DNA of 45,699 nucleotides from a virus: IMG/VR virus record IMGVR_UViG_3300005549_000005, positions 1-45,699 of that record; one strand, given 5' to 3'. This document shows positions 2,472 to 16,024 of the stretch, piece after piece. Made by a program: the position numbers and the translations under genes. Numbering within the stretch: the first letter of the stretch is position 1; each line of letters opens with the position of its first letter. Below the pieces are notes generated by a model. The model was not told the origin of the DNA. It saw only the letters and a program-made list of their open reading frames with translations, and ran no database searches.

Positions 2472-4396
2472 GCGCGCCAGCTCCTGACGTGATCGACTAC
2501 CACGTCAAGCTAACCAACGTTCGCGATTTGGAACTATTCGCGAGTGCAATCAAGGATGCCTTGACCGGGCGCTTGCAAGACGAGCGTTTCTCGGCGATTC
2601 GCTTGCGAGGCGCGCCCCTCCGTTACAATGAATTCCTTGACGAAGGGAAGGCCGCGCTTCGAGGCGCACGCGGCGTGACTTACGAAAATGGGAACATGGA
2701 AGTACGAGAAACATCGTCTGCCTTGCAGCTAGCAGGAACCATCATTCATGAAATGGCCCACGCGCTAGTAGGAAACCAGCAAGCACACAATGACCATTGG
2801 CGTGCTGGCGCTAGAGCGCTAGGCTTGACTGTAGTCGAGGAAAAAGGTCAAGACTACAAGTGGGAAGATTTCGACAAGCACGCGCAAGTGGTCATTGAGG
2901 ATGCACTAGCGCGGTTCGCCCGGGAGTATCCCAAACTGGTCTATGATCCAAACATGATGATTCCGTGGCCTGCCGGCGTTGGCACGCACGAATGCCCGGG
3001 CGCAGACACCAGCCTAGGCAATGGTTGCTCACAACACAAAGTCCACATAATGAAGTTTCAAATCGACGGAATCCGTGAAATGCTAGCTCGCGAGGGAAAC
3101 ATCCTCCTAGCCGACGAGATGGGTTTGGGCAAGACCGTGGAAGTTATGGGTTACATAAACGCGACCCAACCCAAACGCATTTTGGTTGGTTGTCCCAACA
3201 ATGCAAAGTTAATCTGGAAACGACACTTCGAGCAGTTTGCAGTTGGAAACTACGAGCCAGAGGTAGCCGGCAGCGCAATCTACATGTTTGGTGATGTGGT
3301 TATCATAAACTATGAGGCCCTAGCCAAGTGGGGCCCGGCCCTCGCCAAACAAGAATGGGATTTGGTGGTTTACGATGAAGGTCATTACCTTAAAACTCCT
3401 AATACTAAACGATCCAGGGCAGCCTACGGGATCCACGGGGCCAAAACGATTATTGTTACCGGAACTCCAATTGTCAATTACCCTTACGAACTTTTCCCGC
3501 TTATCCACTATTTGGATAGAGAAAACTGGCCTGAATATGGACGCTTCGAGACTCAATTTGGTTCCCGTTCAAGTGAGCGTCTCGGAAGAAATCTCAATCG
3601 ATTGAACGCAATGCTACGCGCCACGATTATGACTCGGCGCTTGAAAAAGGATGTTTTGACAGAGCTCCCACGCAAGCGGCGCCAGATCGTTGAATTTGAG
3701 GTTCCACCAGAAGTCCAGAAGTTAATCGATGAAGAGAAAAAACTGTTTCAGACTGTGCAGGCGTCGCCCGGAGGGCCGGGCCCGGACGTGAGGCTTTTGA
3801 ATATCCTCAAAAACGAAAGCGACGTTGCCGGTGAAGACATCGACTGGGCAGCGATCATCGAGGAATTGAAATACACAAAGCGCTTCGCGTTTGAGGAAAT
3901 GGCGCGCATTGCGCATTTGATCGGGCTCGCCAAAGTCCCACTAGCAATCGAACATATCGAAAACGCCCTCGAAGCAAGGGAGAAGGTCATTGTATTTGGT
4001 CACCATCGTGATGTTCTCTCCCAAATTGCCGACGCCTTCAAGCCCGGTAGTGTGCTATTGCTTGGCGGAAACAGGGACCAGGCAATGGCAACCGAGCAGG
4101 CAGTCGCGCGATTCAATGATGATGACGATTGTCGAGTGTTTGTGGCACAAGTATCCATTGCACAAGGATATTCTATTAGGGGTTCTAGCACAGTCATATT
4201 CGTAGAAGAGGACTGGGTCCCCGGCATCATGACCCAAGCAGAGGACCGGGCGCATGGCATTGGACGTGGTGATGCTGACGCGCGAAGCATGTTGATTCAA
4301 CACTTAGTTTACGAGGATAGTTTGGATACCTACAAGGCTAAACTGACGATCAAGAAACAAAAGTCTATCGACCGGGCTGTGGGGAGTCCACGATGA
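2459..4396 (+). CDS. SprT-like metallopeptidase fused to SNF2-family helicase
   Basis: A 645-residue two-domain protein. Residues about 10-165 form a SprT-like domain: IIHEMAHALVG carries HEMAH (97-101), with further His at 110 and 113 as likely third zinc ligand. Residues about 195-645 form a SNF2-type superfamily 2 helicase: Walker A DEMGLGKT (219-226), DEGH box (306-309), TGTP motif III (334-337), and QAEDRAHGIGR motif VI (593-603). Between them HECPGADTSLGNGC could bind zinc. SprT-like proteases (eukaryotic SPRTN, yeast Wss1) cut proteins crosslinked to DNA; SNF2 proteins move along duplex DNA. I infer an enzyme that finds and removes proteins bound to phage DNA. Both active sites look intact. 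Confidence 0.9.
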   Translation: MERLSAPAPDVIDYHVKLTNVRDLELFASAIKDALTGRLQDERFSAIRLRGAPLRYNEFLDEGKAALRGARGVTYENGNMEVRETSSALQLAGTIIHEMAHALVGNQQAHNDHWRAGARALGLTVVEEKGQDYKWEDFDKHAQVVIEDALARFAREYPKLVYDPNMMIPWPAGVGTHECPGADTSLGNGCSQHKVHIMKFQIDGIREMLAREGNILLADEMGLGKTVEVMGYINATQPKRILVGCPNNAKLIWKRHFEQFAVGNYEPEVAGSAIYMFGDVVIINYEALAKWGPALAKQEWDLVVYDEGHYLKTPNTKRSRAAYGIHGAKTIIVTGTPIVNYPYELFPLIHYLDRENWPEYGRFETQFGSRSSERLGRNLNRLNAMLRATIMTRRLKKDVLTELPRKRRQIVEFEVPPEVQKLIDEEKKLFQTVQASPGGPGPDVRLLNILKNESDVAGEDIDWAAIIEELKYTKRFAFEEMARIAHLIGLAKVPLAIEHIENALEAREKVIVFGHHRDVLSQIADAFKPGSVLLLGGNRDQAMATEQAVARFNDDDDCRVFVAQVSIAQGYSIRGSSTVIFVEEDWVPGIMTQAEDRAHGIGRGDADARSMLIQHLVYEDSLDTYKAKLTIKKQKSIDRAVGSPR

Positions 4397-11365: not shown

Positions 11366-11623
11366 ATGGGAACTTGCTATACAGTATTTCTTCAAGATGA
11401 TTTTGACTGGAGTTACTTAAACAGAACTAAAGAAACTACTTTAAAGGAATTTGCGCAAGAATTCAAAGTTACTAAATTAGGAGAATGGTCTGGTTGGGCA
11501 GTATTTGATTTTGAAAAAACGCCACCGTACATAGATTACGTAAAAACCAGAATTCTTAATTATTGTGATGCTTGTTATTATACTGCAGATACTGAAGCAG
11601 GCTTACTTAAAAAACTTGTATGA
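11366..11623 (+). CDS. AT-rich hypothetical protein (85 aa)
   Basis: An 85-residue protein starting MGTCYTVFLQDDFDWSY. ATG 11366 follows AAAAAAGGAAG. Codon use is much more AT-rich than in the ssDNA-binding-protein gene before it, suggesting recent acquisition. No family recognised. Its stop overlaps the next ATG (ATGA at 11620-11623). Confidence 0.65.
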   Translation: MGTCYTVFLQDDFDWSYLNRTKETTLKEFAQEFKVTKLGEWSGWAVFDFEKTPPYIDYVKTRILNYCDACYYTADTEAGLLKKLV

Positions 11624-11649
11624 TCTTCCCAAACCTTCGAGTCCCTGCC
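11620..11649 (+). repeat. Peptide-level repeat, upstream copy (MIFPNLRVPA)
   Basis: Ten codons encoding the same peptide as 11862-11891. Nine of ten codons differ between the copies: the initiation codon is ATG here and TTG there, and eight others differ only at the third base. This copy uses mostly C- or A-ending codons (ATC TTC CCA AAC) and the other mostly T-ending ones (ATT TTT CCT AAT). Confidence 0.85.
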
Positions 11650-11865
11650 CGCCATGGCTTAGGTATTTTAATGTCATGTTTATGTGGTTATTGTGCTGTT
11701 ATTTGTGTTGATGAGGGTGACGATGCAATTCTAGTTTTAGATGCTTATCAAGTGTTAACCAGGAAGTTCAAGTGGATCAATTGCCCATTCACGTCCGAGG
11801 AATTTGATTCTTTTAGGTTAACACTTAAAATGCTTCAAGCCGCAGAACGAGATTTCATCATTTGA
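11620..11865 (+). CDS. Small gene inserted at polymerase 5' end, fused to a copy of its start
   Basis: An 81-residue frame whose first ten residues, MIFPNLRVPA, are identical to the first ten of the polymerase at 11862; after that the sequences differ. The rest (from Met at 11671, MSCLCGYCAVICVDEG) is an AT-rich, acidic unknown protein with a C-x-C-x2-C group. I read this as a small mobile gene that landed after codon 10 of the polymerase, leaving the old start here. Its own start could be 11671. Confidence 0.6.
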   Translation: MIFPNLRVPARHGLGILMSCLCGYCAVICVDEGDDAILVLDAYQVLTRKFKWINCPFTSEEFDSFRLTLKMLQAAERDFII

Positions 11866-11891
11866 TTTTTCCTAATCTACGTGTGCCTGCT
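11862..11891 (+). repeat. Peptide-level repeat, downstream copy (MIFPNLRVPA)
   Basis: The partner of 11620-11649 and the actual N-terminus of the polymerase. Its T-ending codons match the inserted AT-rich gene rather than the rest of the polymerase, as if it arrived with the insert. Confidence 0.85.
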
Positions 11892-13619
11892 AGCGGCCCG
11901 CGCAATGCGCGTTTGGCGACAATTGGCATGGCTCCCGCAAAAAATGAGATAGCCGATAAAACTCCGTTTACGGGCCCGTCCGGGAGGATCTTTAATGAAG
12001 CGTTGGCGACTTCCAAAGTTAACCGTTCACAAGTCTTTGTATCGAACCTCTGTAATTTTTTCATTGACGATAACAATCTTTATTCGGTTCCAGAAGAGAT
12101 CATGGAAAACGAACGTCAACGTGTATTCCGAGAACTCGACGAAGTCAAACCAAACTGCCTCCTCATCATGGGTGCGGACACCCTCGATCTTCTCACCGCT
12201 TCTCATTTGGATACCGCGATTAACAAGAAAACCGGGGAAAAATATCTCGTAACGATCAACTCCAAGGAGGGAATCATCAAATGGCGAGGAAGCATATTCG
12301 AGCTAAAACTCCCGTCCGGGCGCGTGCAAAAGTGCGTAGCAGCGATGCATCCAGCAAGCTTCATCCGCGGCCAATGGAAGTGGTTACCTCTCTTCAAATA
12401 CATCGATGTCCCGCGGGCTGTCACACAATCTTCATTTCCAGAAATGAGACTAATGTCACGCGAGGCGATAGTTGGACCGTCATTCCAACAAGCGATCGAG
12501 TATCTACAGGAAGCAGAGACAAAGGAATGGATATCTATAGACTACGAGGGTATGGTCCATATAACGTGCCTAGGAATTGGCTGGACCGCCACACAGGCTC
12601 TTTGCATTCCTTTAAATCGTGTTGGTGCAGCATCGTACTGGTCGGTAGACCAAGAGATTCAATTGTGGAAATTATGGTGCCAAATTTTACAAAATCCCAA
12701 AGTCAAGATCATAGCCCAAAACGCTAGCTATGAGTGGATCAAATCATGGCTTCACGGCATTTATCCTAACCCTTTGGGTATTGATACTATGCACGCCCAT
12801 CATTGTTTATATCCTGATTGGGGCGGCATTACTGATGAATGGACCAAACGGAAGAGAGATATCGATAATCCTGGTCACGGTCTGGCTCTCATCACTAGTC
12901 AATACACTGATCAGCCTTTCTACAAAGACGAGGGACGTCACTGGCGCCCCGAACACGGAGAAAGAGCATTCTGGCAATACAACGCTTTAGACGTAATGGT
13001 AACTTACGAAGCCGCTTTCAAAATGATGGAAGAACTTAAAAGCCTTGAACTCTGGGAAGTCTACCAACGCGAGTACCTCGATGGCTTCGAGCATTTGCTT
13101 CGTATGGAATGGTTCGGGACCAAGATTGACGTCGACCGACGCGCCAGCGCGCAGGTTGAGCTAACAGCCGAAATGCACCAATTGTGCGTACAACTCGAAG
13201 ATTTGTGGAAGTTGAAAGTCATCACGAAGAGTGAGAAAAAAGGCCAAAAGCCACAAGATGGGTTGTTGAATCTTGCGAGCCCAGCCCAAGTGAAAACCTT
13301 TTTCCTAAAGCAAGGCTACAAGTTAGGCATCAATCGCAAGACAGGCCAACCCAAGCTAGCCAAGGAGGATCTTCAAGCCTTAGCTATCAAACACGACAGT
13401 GAAGCCATCCGCACCATGCTTCGAGTCCGTGAAATCCAGGACCTTATCAACGATGTCCTAACCCAACCGCTCGATCCCAACCACAACATCCACAGCCACT
13501 GGCGTTTAGGAGGAACCAACGTGACACGACTCTCCTCTGGAGAGAGTATTCTTGGTGGTGGAACCAATCTACAAAACTTGCCTAGGCAGGGCGTAGCTCG
13601 AAGTCTCTTCCTCCCATGA
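11862..13619 (+). CDS. DNA polymerase A family, N-terminal part: UDG-like, 3'-5' exonuclease, thumb
   Basis: A 585-residue protein. Residues about 15-185 resemble the uracil-DNA glycosylase superfamily (GMAPAKNE, then AMHPASFIRG near 161-170), a domain also found in front of phage SPO1-type polymerases. Residues about 220-390 are a DEDD proofreading exonuclease: IDYEG (D227, E229), AQNASYEW, IDTM (D308), YNALDV (D377). The rest is the polymerase up to TRLSS and TNLQNLP, ending ARSLFLP just before motif A. The catalytic palm is encoded separately at 13901. It starts at TTG inside the previous stop (TTGA); that start is supported by the repeated peptide. The two halves presumably assemble. Confidence 0.9.
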   Translation: MIFPNLRVPASGPRNARLATIGMAPAKNEIADKTPFTGPSGRIFNEALATSKVNRSQVFVSNLCNFFIDDNNLYSVPEEIMENERQRVFRELDEVKPNCLLIMGADTLDLLTASHLDTAINKKTGEKYLVTINSKEGIIKWRGSIFELKLPSGRVQKCVAAMHPASFIRGQWKWLPLFKYIDVPRAVTQSSFPEMRLMSREAIVGPSFQQAIEYLQEAETKEWISIDYEGMVHITCLGIGWTATQALCIPLNRVGAASYWSVDQEIQLWKLWCQILQNPKVKIIAQNASYEWIKSWLHGIYPNPLGIDTMHAHHCLYPDWGGITDEWTKRKRDIDNPGHGLALITSQYTDQPFYKDEGRHWRPEHGERAFWQYNALDVMVTYEAAFKMMEELKSLELWEVYQREYLDGFEHLLRMEWFGTKIDVDRRASAQVELTAEMHQLCVQLEDLWKLKVITKSEKKGQKPQDGLLNLASPAQVKTFFLKQGYKLGINRKTGQPKLAKEDLQALAIKHDSEAIRTMLRVREIQDLINDVLTQPLDPNHNIHSHWRLGGTNVTRLSSGESILGGGTNLQNLPRQGVARSLFLP

Positions 13620-13759
13620 CAGCTCCTGTGAGGGATCTTGCAAAAGCTCAAGAGTGTGCCAAATGCGGTCAAACCGCAATGTTGTGCATTCGTTGTCTCA
13701 CTTGTCTAGCTTGCCACAAAAAGGATCTTGAAAGGAGTTGTCCTGATGTTACACTGTGA
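13616..13759 (+). CDS. Zinc-finger ORF 1 inside split polymerase
   Basis: A 47-residue ORF joined by ATGA to the end of the polymerase N-part. It has C-x2-C (C14, C17) and then C24-x2-C27-x2-C30-x2-C33-H34, enough for two zinc sites. It overlaps the next ORF by 14 bases. It is too short for most callers, but the exact coupling of all four genes from 11862 to 14794 supports translation. Function unknown: it could help join the polymerase halves, bind DNA, or be a mobile remnant. Confidence 0.65.
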   Translation: MTAPVRDLAKAQECAKCGQTAMLCIRCLTCLACHKKDLERSCPDVTL

Positions 13760-13904
13760 CTTTTGTCGGGAGCCAGACAATACCCCAGCGAATACGTTTT
13801 ACATTGAGCGAAACGGTCGAAGGCCATTATGTCTTCAATGCGGCATCGAGATATGCGCACATGTGCTTAAGAGTTTGTTAACACGAGTGTTTATACCTAG
13901 ATGA
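13746..13904 (+). CDS. Zinc-finger ORF 2 inside split polymerase
   Basis: A 52-residue ORF beginning MLHCDFCREPDN, with C4-x2-C7 and C29-x2-C32, a zinc-ribbon layout, plus C37. Preceded by GAAAGGAG. The stop overlaps the ATG of the polymerase C-part (ATGA at 13901-13904). Its last residues, TRVFIPR, resemble the polymerase junction (ARSLFLP ending the N-part, MIPPR starting the C-part), which may be a second recoded junction, though the match is short. Confidence 0.65.
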   Translation: MLHCDFCREPDNTPANTFYIERNGRRPLCLQCGIEICAHVLKSLLTRVFIPR

Positions 13905-14794
13905 TCCCACCGCGAACCTGGCTGTTTGGAGATATGGCCCAAGCAGAGACCCGGGTGGTAGCTTGGCGAGGCCCGGTCCCGTCCCTAAAAAAATGGTTCC
14001 TCGAGGGCCGTGACGTGCATTCAAACACGACTCAAATGATCGCCCGGGTGATCCAAGAAAACAAACTCAAGATCCACAAGAATCTCTTTCATACGAAACA
14101 TTGGAGTGAATACGGTAAAGGAGACGAGGAACGCGAAGTTACCAAACGCGTCGCACATGGTTATGACAATGTTATCGGGAAGAAACGAGTTTCGTTAATT
14201 CTCGGTGTGCCGGAGGCCACGGCACAAATGCTCCTTGACTTGCATGGTAAGGTGTTTCCGGAGATCGCTAGCGGTTACCACGCTTGGATTCGACACCAGA
14301 TCAAAACGACGCGAACGCTAGTCACGCCTGAGCCCGTCCGGTTCCGAAAGGTTTTCTGGGACTTGATCGACGATGACGTGCTGCGCCAAGCCTACGCTAG
14401 CTACAAACAGATCATTGTGGCTAGCATTCTAAACCAGACTCTTTACAAATGCGCTAGAATCTTTGCGGAGGATCATGATGAGACACTTAGAGAGCAGTGG
14501 TGTGCTTGGTACGGCCGGGAGAATCTTGATCTTTGGCGTAGACTGCATGATCGACAAGATCGAAGCCCGCAAGCCATTCTATGGGGTGGCATGGACATTC
14601 GGCTTAATGTGCATGATGCCGGTGGTATTTCTGTTCCTGACGATCCTGATATTCTGCGCTGGGCTGCTAATACTTGGCGAGCAGCTGGTGAAGTACCTAT
14701 CTACATCACGCCAGAAGATCCACTAATCATCCCCATCGACTTCAAAACCGGACCAACGTGGGGTAATCTACACGATTACAAGATCCCTGCCTAA
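13901..14794 (+). CDS. DNA polymerase A family, C-terminal part: palm and fingers
   Basis: A 297-residue protein with polymerase motif A GDMAQAETR (catalytic D11), motif B R78-x3-K82 followed by RVAHGYDN, and motif C NVHDAGG (H238, D239). Both metal-binding aspartates are present. Two changes stand out: H86 stands where T7 polymerase has Tyr526 and E. coli Pol I has Phe762, and motif C is HDA rather than HDE. It begins with an ATG that overlaps zinc-finger ORF 2, so synthesis of the whole polymerase is coupled. Confidence 0.88.
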   Translation: MIPPRTWLFGDMAQAETRVVAWRGPVPSLKKWFLEGRDVHSNTTQMIARVIQENKLKIHKNLFHTKHWSEYGKGDEEREVTKRVAHGYDNVIGKKRVSLILGVPEATAQMLLDLHGKVFPEIASGYHAWIRHQIKTTRTLVTPEPVRFRKVFWDLIDDDVLRQAYASYKQIIVASILNQTLYKCARIFAEDHDETLREQWCAWYGRENLDLWRRLHDRQDRSPQAILWGGMDIRLNVHDAGGISVPDDPDILRWAANTWRAAGEVPIYITPEDPLIIPIDFKTGPTWGNLHDYKIPA

Positions 14795-14797
14795 CCT

Positions 14798-16024
14798 ATG
14801 CCCGACAAACGCCTCACCAACGACTGGCTCGCGTCGTATCTAGACTTAACATCGTCTCTGGAAGCGCCCGAGTCTATCCATTTATGGACTGGTTTGTCTC
14901 TCATTTCGATGGCCGTCCGCCGCAAAGTTTACCTAGATATGGAGTATGGGAAGATTTTTCCTAATCTCTATACAATTATCGTAGCCGAGAGCGCAAAAGT
15001 GAGGAAGTCAGCGGCGATGGACTTCGGCCGGGAGCTCCTAATAGAAGCCATCCCCGAAATGAAAATCATGCGTGACTCGATGACGAGTCAGGGTCTCATC
15101 AAAGAATTAAACAAGAAAACTCAAGTCATCAAAGGAGACAAAATTGAAGAAGAGCTACGGAGCGATGTGGCAATCTTTGCTGATGAAGTTGCTAATCTAT
15201 TCGGTTACGAAAAGACCAGAGCGGCACAAATGGTTATTTTTCTCACACGGGCATACACGTGTCCCAGTATCTACGATCATACAACTGTACGCGACTCCAC
15301 TGTTCGGTTGCACAATCTCTATCCAGTGCTTCTTGGCGGAACCGATCCCCGAAACCTTAAAGTCTTTCCTGAAGATGCAGTTGGAGGTCTTACGGGTAGA
15401 CTAATCTGGGTCATCGAAACCGCTCGCCGCACCAACAATCCTGGTTGGAAGAAAGATTCAAAGGATGTTCTTCAACGCACACTCCTCCGTGAGTATCTAA
15501 TCCATGATTTAAAAAGAATCTCGATGCTGTCTGGTGAAGTCACAGTCGACCCAACCGCAATGGAAATGTACGATCAATGGTACGATGCCTTGTCAAAGAA
15601 AGATACGCATGATCCTGCCACTGATGCTTTCTATCATCGTTGCCACACAACAGCGTTAAGGTTGTTGATTCTGCTAGCATTGTCAAGCAGTGACGATCTC
15701 GTCGCCACGCCCCGCCACATGAAGGGCGCGATTGCCTTAATCGAAGCCCAACTCCCCGAAGTCAAACGAGTCACCATGTGGTCAGGTGGGTCACAATACG
15801 AGCAAAAACGTGCTAAATATCTTCATTTCTTGCAGCAATGCCCGAAGGGCGTAAGCACCCGCCGTCGTATCCTTCAATACATGGGAGTTTCAATAGAGGA
15901 GTTTGACATGTTAACCAACACTTTGACGCAGGATGGTTCAATCACACAACCGGGGATTTTGGTGGGGAAGGATCCTGTTATCGTACTTACGGCGCAGGGA
16001 TTTGGGCAGGAGGTGCAGGTATGA
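14798..16024 (+). CDS. DUF3987-like replicative helicase/primase-type ATPase
   Basis: A 408-residue protein. LYTIIVAESAKVRKSAAMDFG (from about residue 58) is the altered P-loop (S-x3-R-K-S) typical of DUF3987 proteins, and VAIFADEV (D129, E130) is the Walker B. DUF3987 domains belong to the P-loop ATPases near DnaB/RecA and often sit in phage helicase or primase-helicase proteins. The C-terminal 90 residues look like a winged-helix (STRRRILQYMGVSIEEF). It directly follows the polymerase, so it is the likely replicative helicase or its loader. No separate primase was found. Confidence 0.75.
   Translation: MPDKRLTNDWLASYLDLTSSLEAPESIHLWTGLSLISMAVRRKVYLDMEYGKIFPNLYTIIVAESAKVRKSAAMDFGRELLIEAIPEMKIMRDSMTSQGLIKELNKKTQVIKGDKIEEELRSDVAIFADEVANLFGYEKTRAAQMVIFLTRAYTCPSIYDHTTVRDSTVRLHNLYPVLLGGTDPRNLKVFPEDAVGGLTGRLIWVIETARRTNNPGWKKDSKDVLQRTLLREYLIHDLKRISMLSGEVTVDPTAMEMYDQWYDALSKKDTHDPATDAFYHRCHTTALRLLILLALSSSDDLVATPRHMKGAIALIEAQLPEVKRVTMWSGGSQYEQKRAKYLHFLQQCPKGVSTRRRILQYMGVSIEEFDMLTNTLTQDGSITQPGILVGKDPVIVLTAQGFGQEVQV

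Follow-up and report, generated by a model that had tools for sequence, protein, structure and literature searches.

A family A DNA polymerase encoded in two halves

The stretch of DNA analyzed here (the window) is a phage sequence of 45,699 nt, comprising positions 1–45,699 of the IMG/VR record IMGVR_UViG_3300005549_000005. It contains a family A DNA polymerase gene in two halves, separated by two small cysteine-rich ORFs (ZF1 and ZF2) and followed by a DUF3987/primase-helicase gene, as follows:

11862–13619, plus strand: N-half of the split family A DNA polymerase (Pfam and PHROG matches; alignment A1 with three relatives)
13616–13759, plus strand: ZF1, 47-aa ORF with the pattern C-x2-C...C-x2-C-x2-C-x2-CH (ORF call; its start overlaps the N-half stop, ATGA)
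13731–13737, plus strand: Shine-Dalgarno-like AAAGGAG for ZF2 (−8.2 kcal/mol duplex with the anti-SD)
13746–13904, plus strand: ZF2, 52-aa ORF with two CxxC pairs (ORF call; 14-nt overlap with ZF1, ATGA overlap with the C-half)
13901–14794, plus strand: C-half of the split DNA polymerase, with motif A, fingers and motif C (Pfam, PHROG, alignment A2)
13931–13933, plus strand: catalytic Asp of motif A, C-half residue 11 (invariant in A2; column 988 of the alignment of 19 polymerases)
14132–14173, plus strand: motif B helix, with R78, K82 and H86 (alignment A2)
14612–14617, plus strand: His-Asp of motif C (HDA; alignment A2)
14798–16024, plus strand: DUF3987/primase-helicase gene (profile matches, comparison with relatives)

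The coordinates of the four ORFs and of their overlaps (ATGA, 14 nt and ATGA), as given in an initial annotation, were confirmed on the sequence. The N-half has a TTG start and encodes 585 aa ending in ARSLFLP, which include a UDG domain, a 3′-5′ exonuclease, the thumb and the first part of the palm; Pfam matches were obtained for the UDG domain (8e-13), the 3′-5′ exonuclease (2e-5) and the N part (first third) of DNA_pol_A (4e-6). The C-half has an ATG start, ten codons 5′ of the motif A aspartate, and its 297 aa match positions 154–264 of the DNA_pol_A profile (2e-5). Likewise, the two halves match consecutive parts of phrog_17, “DNA polymerase” (544–1002 for the N-half and 1007–1237 for the C-half), which agrees with the initial reading of one polymerase interrupted after ARSLFLP (13619) and continued from 13901. 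Both parts are homologous to the family A polymerases of the phage UDG-exo-PolA type (phrog_17), and the aspartates of motifs A and C are present. Positions 5–46 of the family profile of the C-half align with Taq 602–645, and the break would lie at about Taq 600/601, around ten residues before the catalytic D610, with the exact residue deduced from the motif. Unlike ZF2, the C-half and ZF1 have no good ribosome-binding site, both of which start at ATGA overlaps; these overlaps, on both sides of the gap, suggest coupled translation.

The context of motif A in the window C-half is GDMAQAE. The R and K of motif B (R-x3-K) are kept, and its usual Tyr-Gly is replaced by Asn90-Val91 (14168–14173), with HGYDNVIG in the window versus NYG or DYG in relatives; YG is kept in the three close relatives (A2). 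The initial annotation had described the catalytic aspartates, the exonuclease and the binding motifs as kept on either side of the break; this holds for the aspartates of motifs A and C and for the exonuclease, which was matched, but not wholly for the binding motifs. The third residue of motif C is A or S throughout the lineage; a connection of the split with an HDE to HDA change in this motif was rejected, since relatives with an unsplit polymerase often have HDS as well.

The split polymerase is the sole DNA_pol_A match in the window record, and a profile search of the same record gave no match to DNA_pol_B or DNA_pol3_alpha; another polymerase could be located outside the record, which may be incomplete. 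AlphaFold models of the separate halves, obtained with an input alignment that was too shallow, had pLDDT values of 43 and 45 and were unusable. The close relatives, and several distant ones, likewise have the DUF3987/primase-helicase gene 3′ of the polymerase. Directly upstream of the polymerase there is an 81-aa ORF (11620–11865) whose first ten residues, MIFPNLRVPA, are also those of the polymerase start (11862–11891), and the respective coding stretches are identical in 21/30 nt. This repeat resembles an ancient duplication in which the polymerase start was copied on either side of an inserted ORF, and is perhaps a trace of gene entry into the replication operon.

The break is conserved among close relatives

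Three IMG/VR relatives span the locus (L002, L003 and L004), and their N-halves show 58–66% identity; additionally, L015 contains only a partial C-half. In these three relatives the N-half stops at ARSLFLP[G/S]*, within one codon of the position in the window, and the C-half restarts a few codons before motif A, VWL(F/A)(A/G)D. Since all three stop and restart at the same place as the window, the break was already present in their common ancestor and, as the initial annotation held, is not random. In both halves, the comparison of the window with L002 revealed changes at 55–62% of third codon positions versus 20–34% of first and second positions, and this excess of third-position change indicates that both are under purifying selection.

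A continuous UDG-exo-PolA gene was found only in the distant phages Mel-JY34, LS06, ctMlz233 and L005, with 24–27% identity. The polymerase thus shows the pattern of genes-in-pieces, being continuous in outgroups and broken, although kept under selection, in four contigs. An additional search pattern retrieved no further members of the lineage, and searches with the C-half, as a single sequence or in bacterial genomes, gave no matches. The polymerase of SBSphiC appeared interrupted in BLAST comparisons and is actually a single ORF.

The window is a single metagenomic contig, and its break could in principle be an assembly or sequencing error. However, an identical break occurs in three relatives that carry different inserts, L003 and L012, from two metagenome data sets (possibly of one sample), share a 7,230-nt stretch that spans the break with 100% identity, and isolated phages have the same kind of break (see below), making an error exceedingly improbable. 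Likewise, the comparison with the close relatives revealed neither an unsplit polymerase nor signs of contig errors at 13616 and 13901; the only phages with a continuous gene are distant. Decay would be another way to lose continuity, with the polymerase being a pseudogene and the phage relying on the host polymerase. The window C-half is indeed accelerated, with a tip length of 0.54 versus 0.32 for the N-half, and the Tyr-Gly of motif B is replaced; because of these two features, which may stem from adaptation or from weakening, the window polymerase may have an altered or weakened activity, possibly with a different fidelity or function. Nevertheless, the four contigs have both halves open, the same break and third-position-biased change, and the motif A and C aspartates are invariant (A2), so that we consider decay very unlikely.

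Independent splits in other family A polymerases

The loop that is split in the window is also split in phages MEP401, QDWS535, ctOsX528 and ct2os315, which belong to a separate clade. There is one gene between the halves in MEP401 and in ctOsX528, none in QDWS535, in which the halves abut, and seven in ct2os315 (L031, 424–5893), in which they are 3.6 kb apart; the latter seven include genes for a cytosine methyltransferase and a stomatin-like protein. The C-half of ctOsX528 (L026, ~3349–4113) has ATQKALEW versus ADAKALEW in MEP401, and seems to lack the motif A aspartate.

The neighboring, preceding loop is split in the Vibrio phages VS-ABTNL-3, with the break after NLQNLP and one gene between the halves, and ICP2_2013_A_Haiti, with 9 nt between the halves and the C-half as a separate gene with its own SD and ATG. 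In ICP2, an HNH gene is located exactly at the break point of ICP2_2013_A_Haiti. In ICP2 (L028, 3155–3667), the polymerase is annotated as a two-piece join around the HNH gene, with the downstream part having its own ATG; given this ATG and the separate gene of ICP2_2013_A_Haiti, the join annotation may be wrong. Other UDG-exo-PolA genes are broken within the exonuclease domain, with two genes in between (Kuura, L018), or between the exonuclease and the polymerase (ctLwi270, L017).

Using a tree of 19 polymerases, with ct2os315 left out, a single origin of the same-loop split was rejected (p-AU 1e-72). In this tree the same-loop break needs two origins, and breaks of any kind need at least five changes of split state. 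These sequence comparisons indicate that the same loop was split independently in the window lineage and in the MEP401-type phages.

The gap carries different genes in each relative

The gap between the halves is 281 nt long in the window, and 947, 948 and 836 nt in the three relatives. No significant similarity at the DNA level was seen between the window gap and those of the relatives, which are almost wholly coding and whose last gene overlaps the C-half. In all three relatives the gap encodes MazG and one and the same unnamed conserved protein; L002 additionally has a Cys-rich ORF and L003 a 34-aa Cys-rich ORF, and L004 has no further gap gene. The MazG proteins are of two types, that of L003 differing from that of L002, with 64.7% identity between those of L003 and L004 and ~32% to that of L002. 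The MazG from L002 is 49.5% identical to one that is outside the polymerase in ctLwi270, and a relative of the Cys-rich ORF from L002 sits after the primase gene in L003; judging from these kin outside the polymerase gap, the cargo is ordinary. Profile searches detected no endonuclease domain in the spacer ORFs, either here or in the relatives. The open frame of the unnamed protein (L003, 7610–8170; L002, 7643–8188; L004, 4031–4723) extends back into the N-half. In L003 the stretch from the N-half stop to the conserved part contains no in-frame ATG, GTG or TTG, so that expression of this protein requires a start within an overlap, an unusual start codon or a frameshift.

ZF1 and ZF2 are probably real small genes, because of their overlaps, the ribosome-binding site and the Cys pattern. 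No close relatives of ZF2 were found in IMG/VR, and the ORF directly preceding the C-half of L003 has a Cys/His spacing like that of ZF1. The resemblance of this ORF to ZF1 was not accepted as proof of homology, as 312 of 2000 Cys/His-preserving shuffles reached the same score; it is explained by the spacing and is not significant beyond it.

In the initial annotation, the zinc-finger proteins were suggested as a possible bridge between the halves or as accessory factors of the polymerase, which would make them conserved subunits. Their overlaps with both polymerase halves and the position of the ZF1-like ORF of L003 would be in line with this role. However, L004 has no ZF-like ORF between the halves, the Cys-rich ORF in the L002 gap is unrelated to the ZFs, the resemblance of ZF1 to the L003 ORF reduces to spacing, and the gap genes of other split family A polymerases are unrelated or, as in QDWS535, absent, while the halves of ct2os315 lie far apart. 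The proposal is thus not supported by the comparison, and a bridging or accessory role is unlikely. Since every relative has different gap genes and some split polymerases have none, ZF1 and ZF2 are best seen as cargo, and are probably passengers in the gap.

Intron and intein signatures

The 281-nt insert could also be a self-splicing intron, perhaps degenerate, with the polymerase being made as one chain and the small ORFs being intron ORFs or occurring by chance. Group I introns are known to reside in polymerase genes of phages, as in LUZ24, and an intron was proposed by the authors for the split of MEP401 (PMC10580990). We searched Rfam in E-value mode, because the gathering threshold misses the LUZ24 control. 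There was no match, and no group I core, in window positions 13400–14200 at E ≤ 5, whereas the control intron from LUZ24 was found at 1e-8; likewise, there were no matches in L003, L004, VS-ABTNL-3 or ICP2 at E ≤ 1. An intron is quite unlikely because of this negative covariance search, because the gaps of the relatives are nearly all coding, overlap the C-half and share no DNA with that of the window, and because same-loop splits elsewhere have either no gap or seven genes in it.

The terminal sequences of the two halves exclude a split intein: the N-half ends in conserved polymerase sequence, in the window only nine residues after NLPRQ, which leaves no room for one, and only 10 residues of the C-half precede the motif A Asp. 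The suggestion that the gap holds the remains of a mobile element stands in part, in that such elements are a possible origin of these breaks, as exemplified by the HNH gene of ICP2, but the window gap shows no detectable trace of an endonuclease, an intron or an intein.

A proposed replicase made from two genes

Considering the observed split, its shared position, the selection on both halves, the turnover of cargo and the independent recurrence elsewhere, we propose that this lineage replicates its DNA with a polymerase that has become fixed as a gene-in-pieces enzyme, whose halves assemble non-covalently and which was born from an insertion whose cargo was later replaced; we give this reading a probability of roughly 0.78. 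The chain would have been broken once, in the ancestor of the lineage, in the loop directly before motif A, leaving the C-half with the fingers and the remainder of the palm, which includes the two catalytic aspartates. The halves would be translated separately from one operon and, by analogy with known split enzymes, we infer that they assemble non-covalently into one polymerase and that this assembly is active. Likewise, we infer that the split originated by gene insertion: the break probably came from an inserted gene, either a homing endonuclease or a co-transferred neighbor, after which the downstream part would have gained its own start codon. By the same analogy, the insertion of a homing endonuclease is the most likely origin, although none remains in the window lineage. 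The gap would then have become an ordinary intergenic site in which small cargo genes come and go, such as those for the unnamed protein and MazG in the relatives and the two zinc-finger ORFs in the window.

A broader idea, possible but doubtful, is that the loop preceding motif A acts as a hot spot at which phage family A replicases convergently become permanent two-subunit enzymes. The gap would then serve as a cargo site in the replication operon, and the split itself would be selected, for example by destroying the target of a homing endonuclease or by controlling polymerase assembly.

Replicative polymerases are normally single chains, in which the palm runs without interruption into motif A. 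The interest of these phages lies in the recurrence of the break: at least two groups cut the chain before motif A independently and keep the cut, one member having seven genes in the gap. They offer a natural system for protein complementation at the active site and for the origin of essential genes-in-pieces, and MEP401 and QDWS535 are cultured examples that make it testable. The split also bears on annotation, since the halves appear in records as two “DNA polymerase” genes or are described as introns.

Comparison with known systems

A split family A polymerase with a small ORF between the halves is already reported in the Methylophilales phages MEP401/MEP402 (gp13-gp14-gp15) (PMC10580990). 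As in the window, the break of these phages is in the same loop, is lineage-wide and holds a small ORF of unknown function; unlike the window, they belong to a separate clade, lack the UDG domain, have another spacer ORF and were suspected by the authors to contain an intron. As far as the papers cited here show, the novelty is a second, independent lineage, with a UDG domain, together with its coincident break position, the turnover of cargo and the spacer of seven genes; these four argue against an intron and for a recurrent two-subunit replicase.

ICP2 and ICP2_2013_A_Haiti also have the polymerase in two genes, with the HNH gene in the gap of the former and 9 nt in that of the latter, but their break is in the preceding loop (after NLQN), ~20 residues upstream, and they belong to another clade. 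In LUZ24 the family A polymerase gene is interrupted too, although near motif B and with a true intron signature, the interruption being a group I intron with an endonuclease VII ORF. In MIJ3, a small gene likewise separates two polymerase ORFs, but this is a split PolB, of family B, with intein blocks (PMC6892783).

The T4-like phages contain genes-in-pieces generated by homing endonucleases, which favor conserved, essential coding sites and whose insertions split genes; these include nrdA of Aeh1, 43A/43B of the Aeromonas phages 25 and 44RR, and the T4 topoisomerase (PMC2988022). The window resembles them in having an essential replication gene cut at a critical region, with co-oriented parts and overlapping stop and start codons. 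Its polymerase differs from 43A/43B in being of family A instead of B, and in having a gap with cargo genes and without an endonuclease. Reassembly of the products has been shown in T4-like phages for both nrdA and 43A/43B: the split nrdA of Aeh1 is fully active, and the halves of the family B polymerase 43A/43B from phage 25 co-purify and polymerize (PMC2988022).
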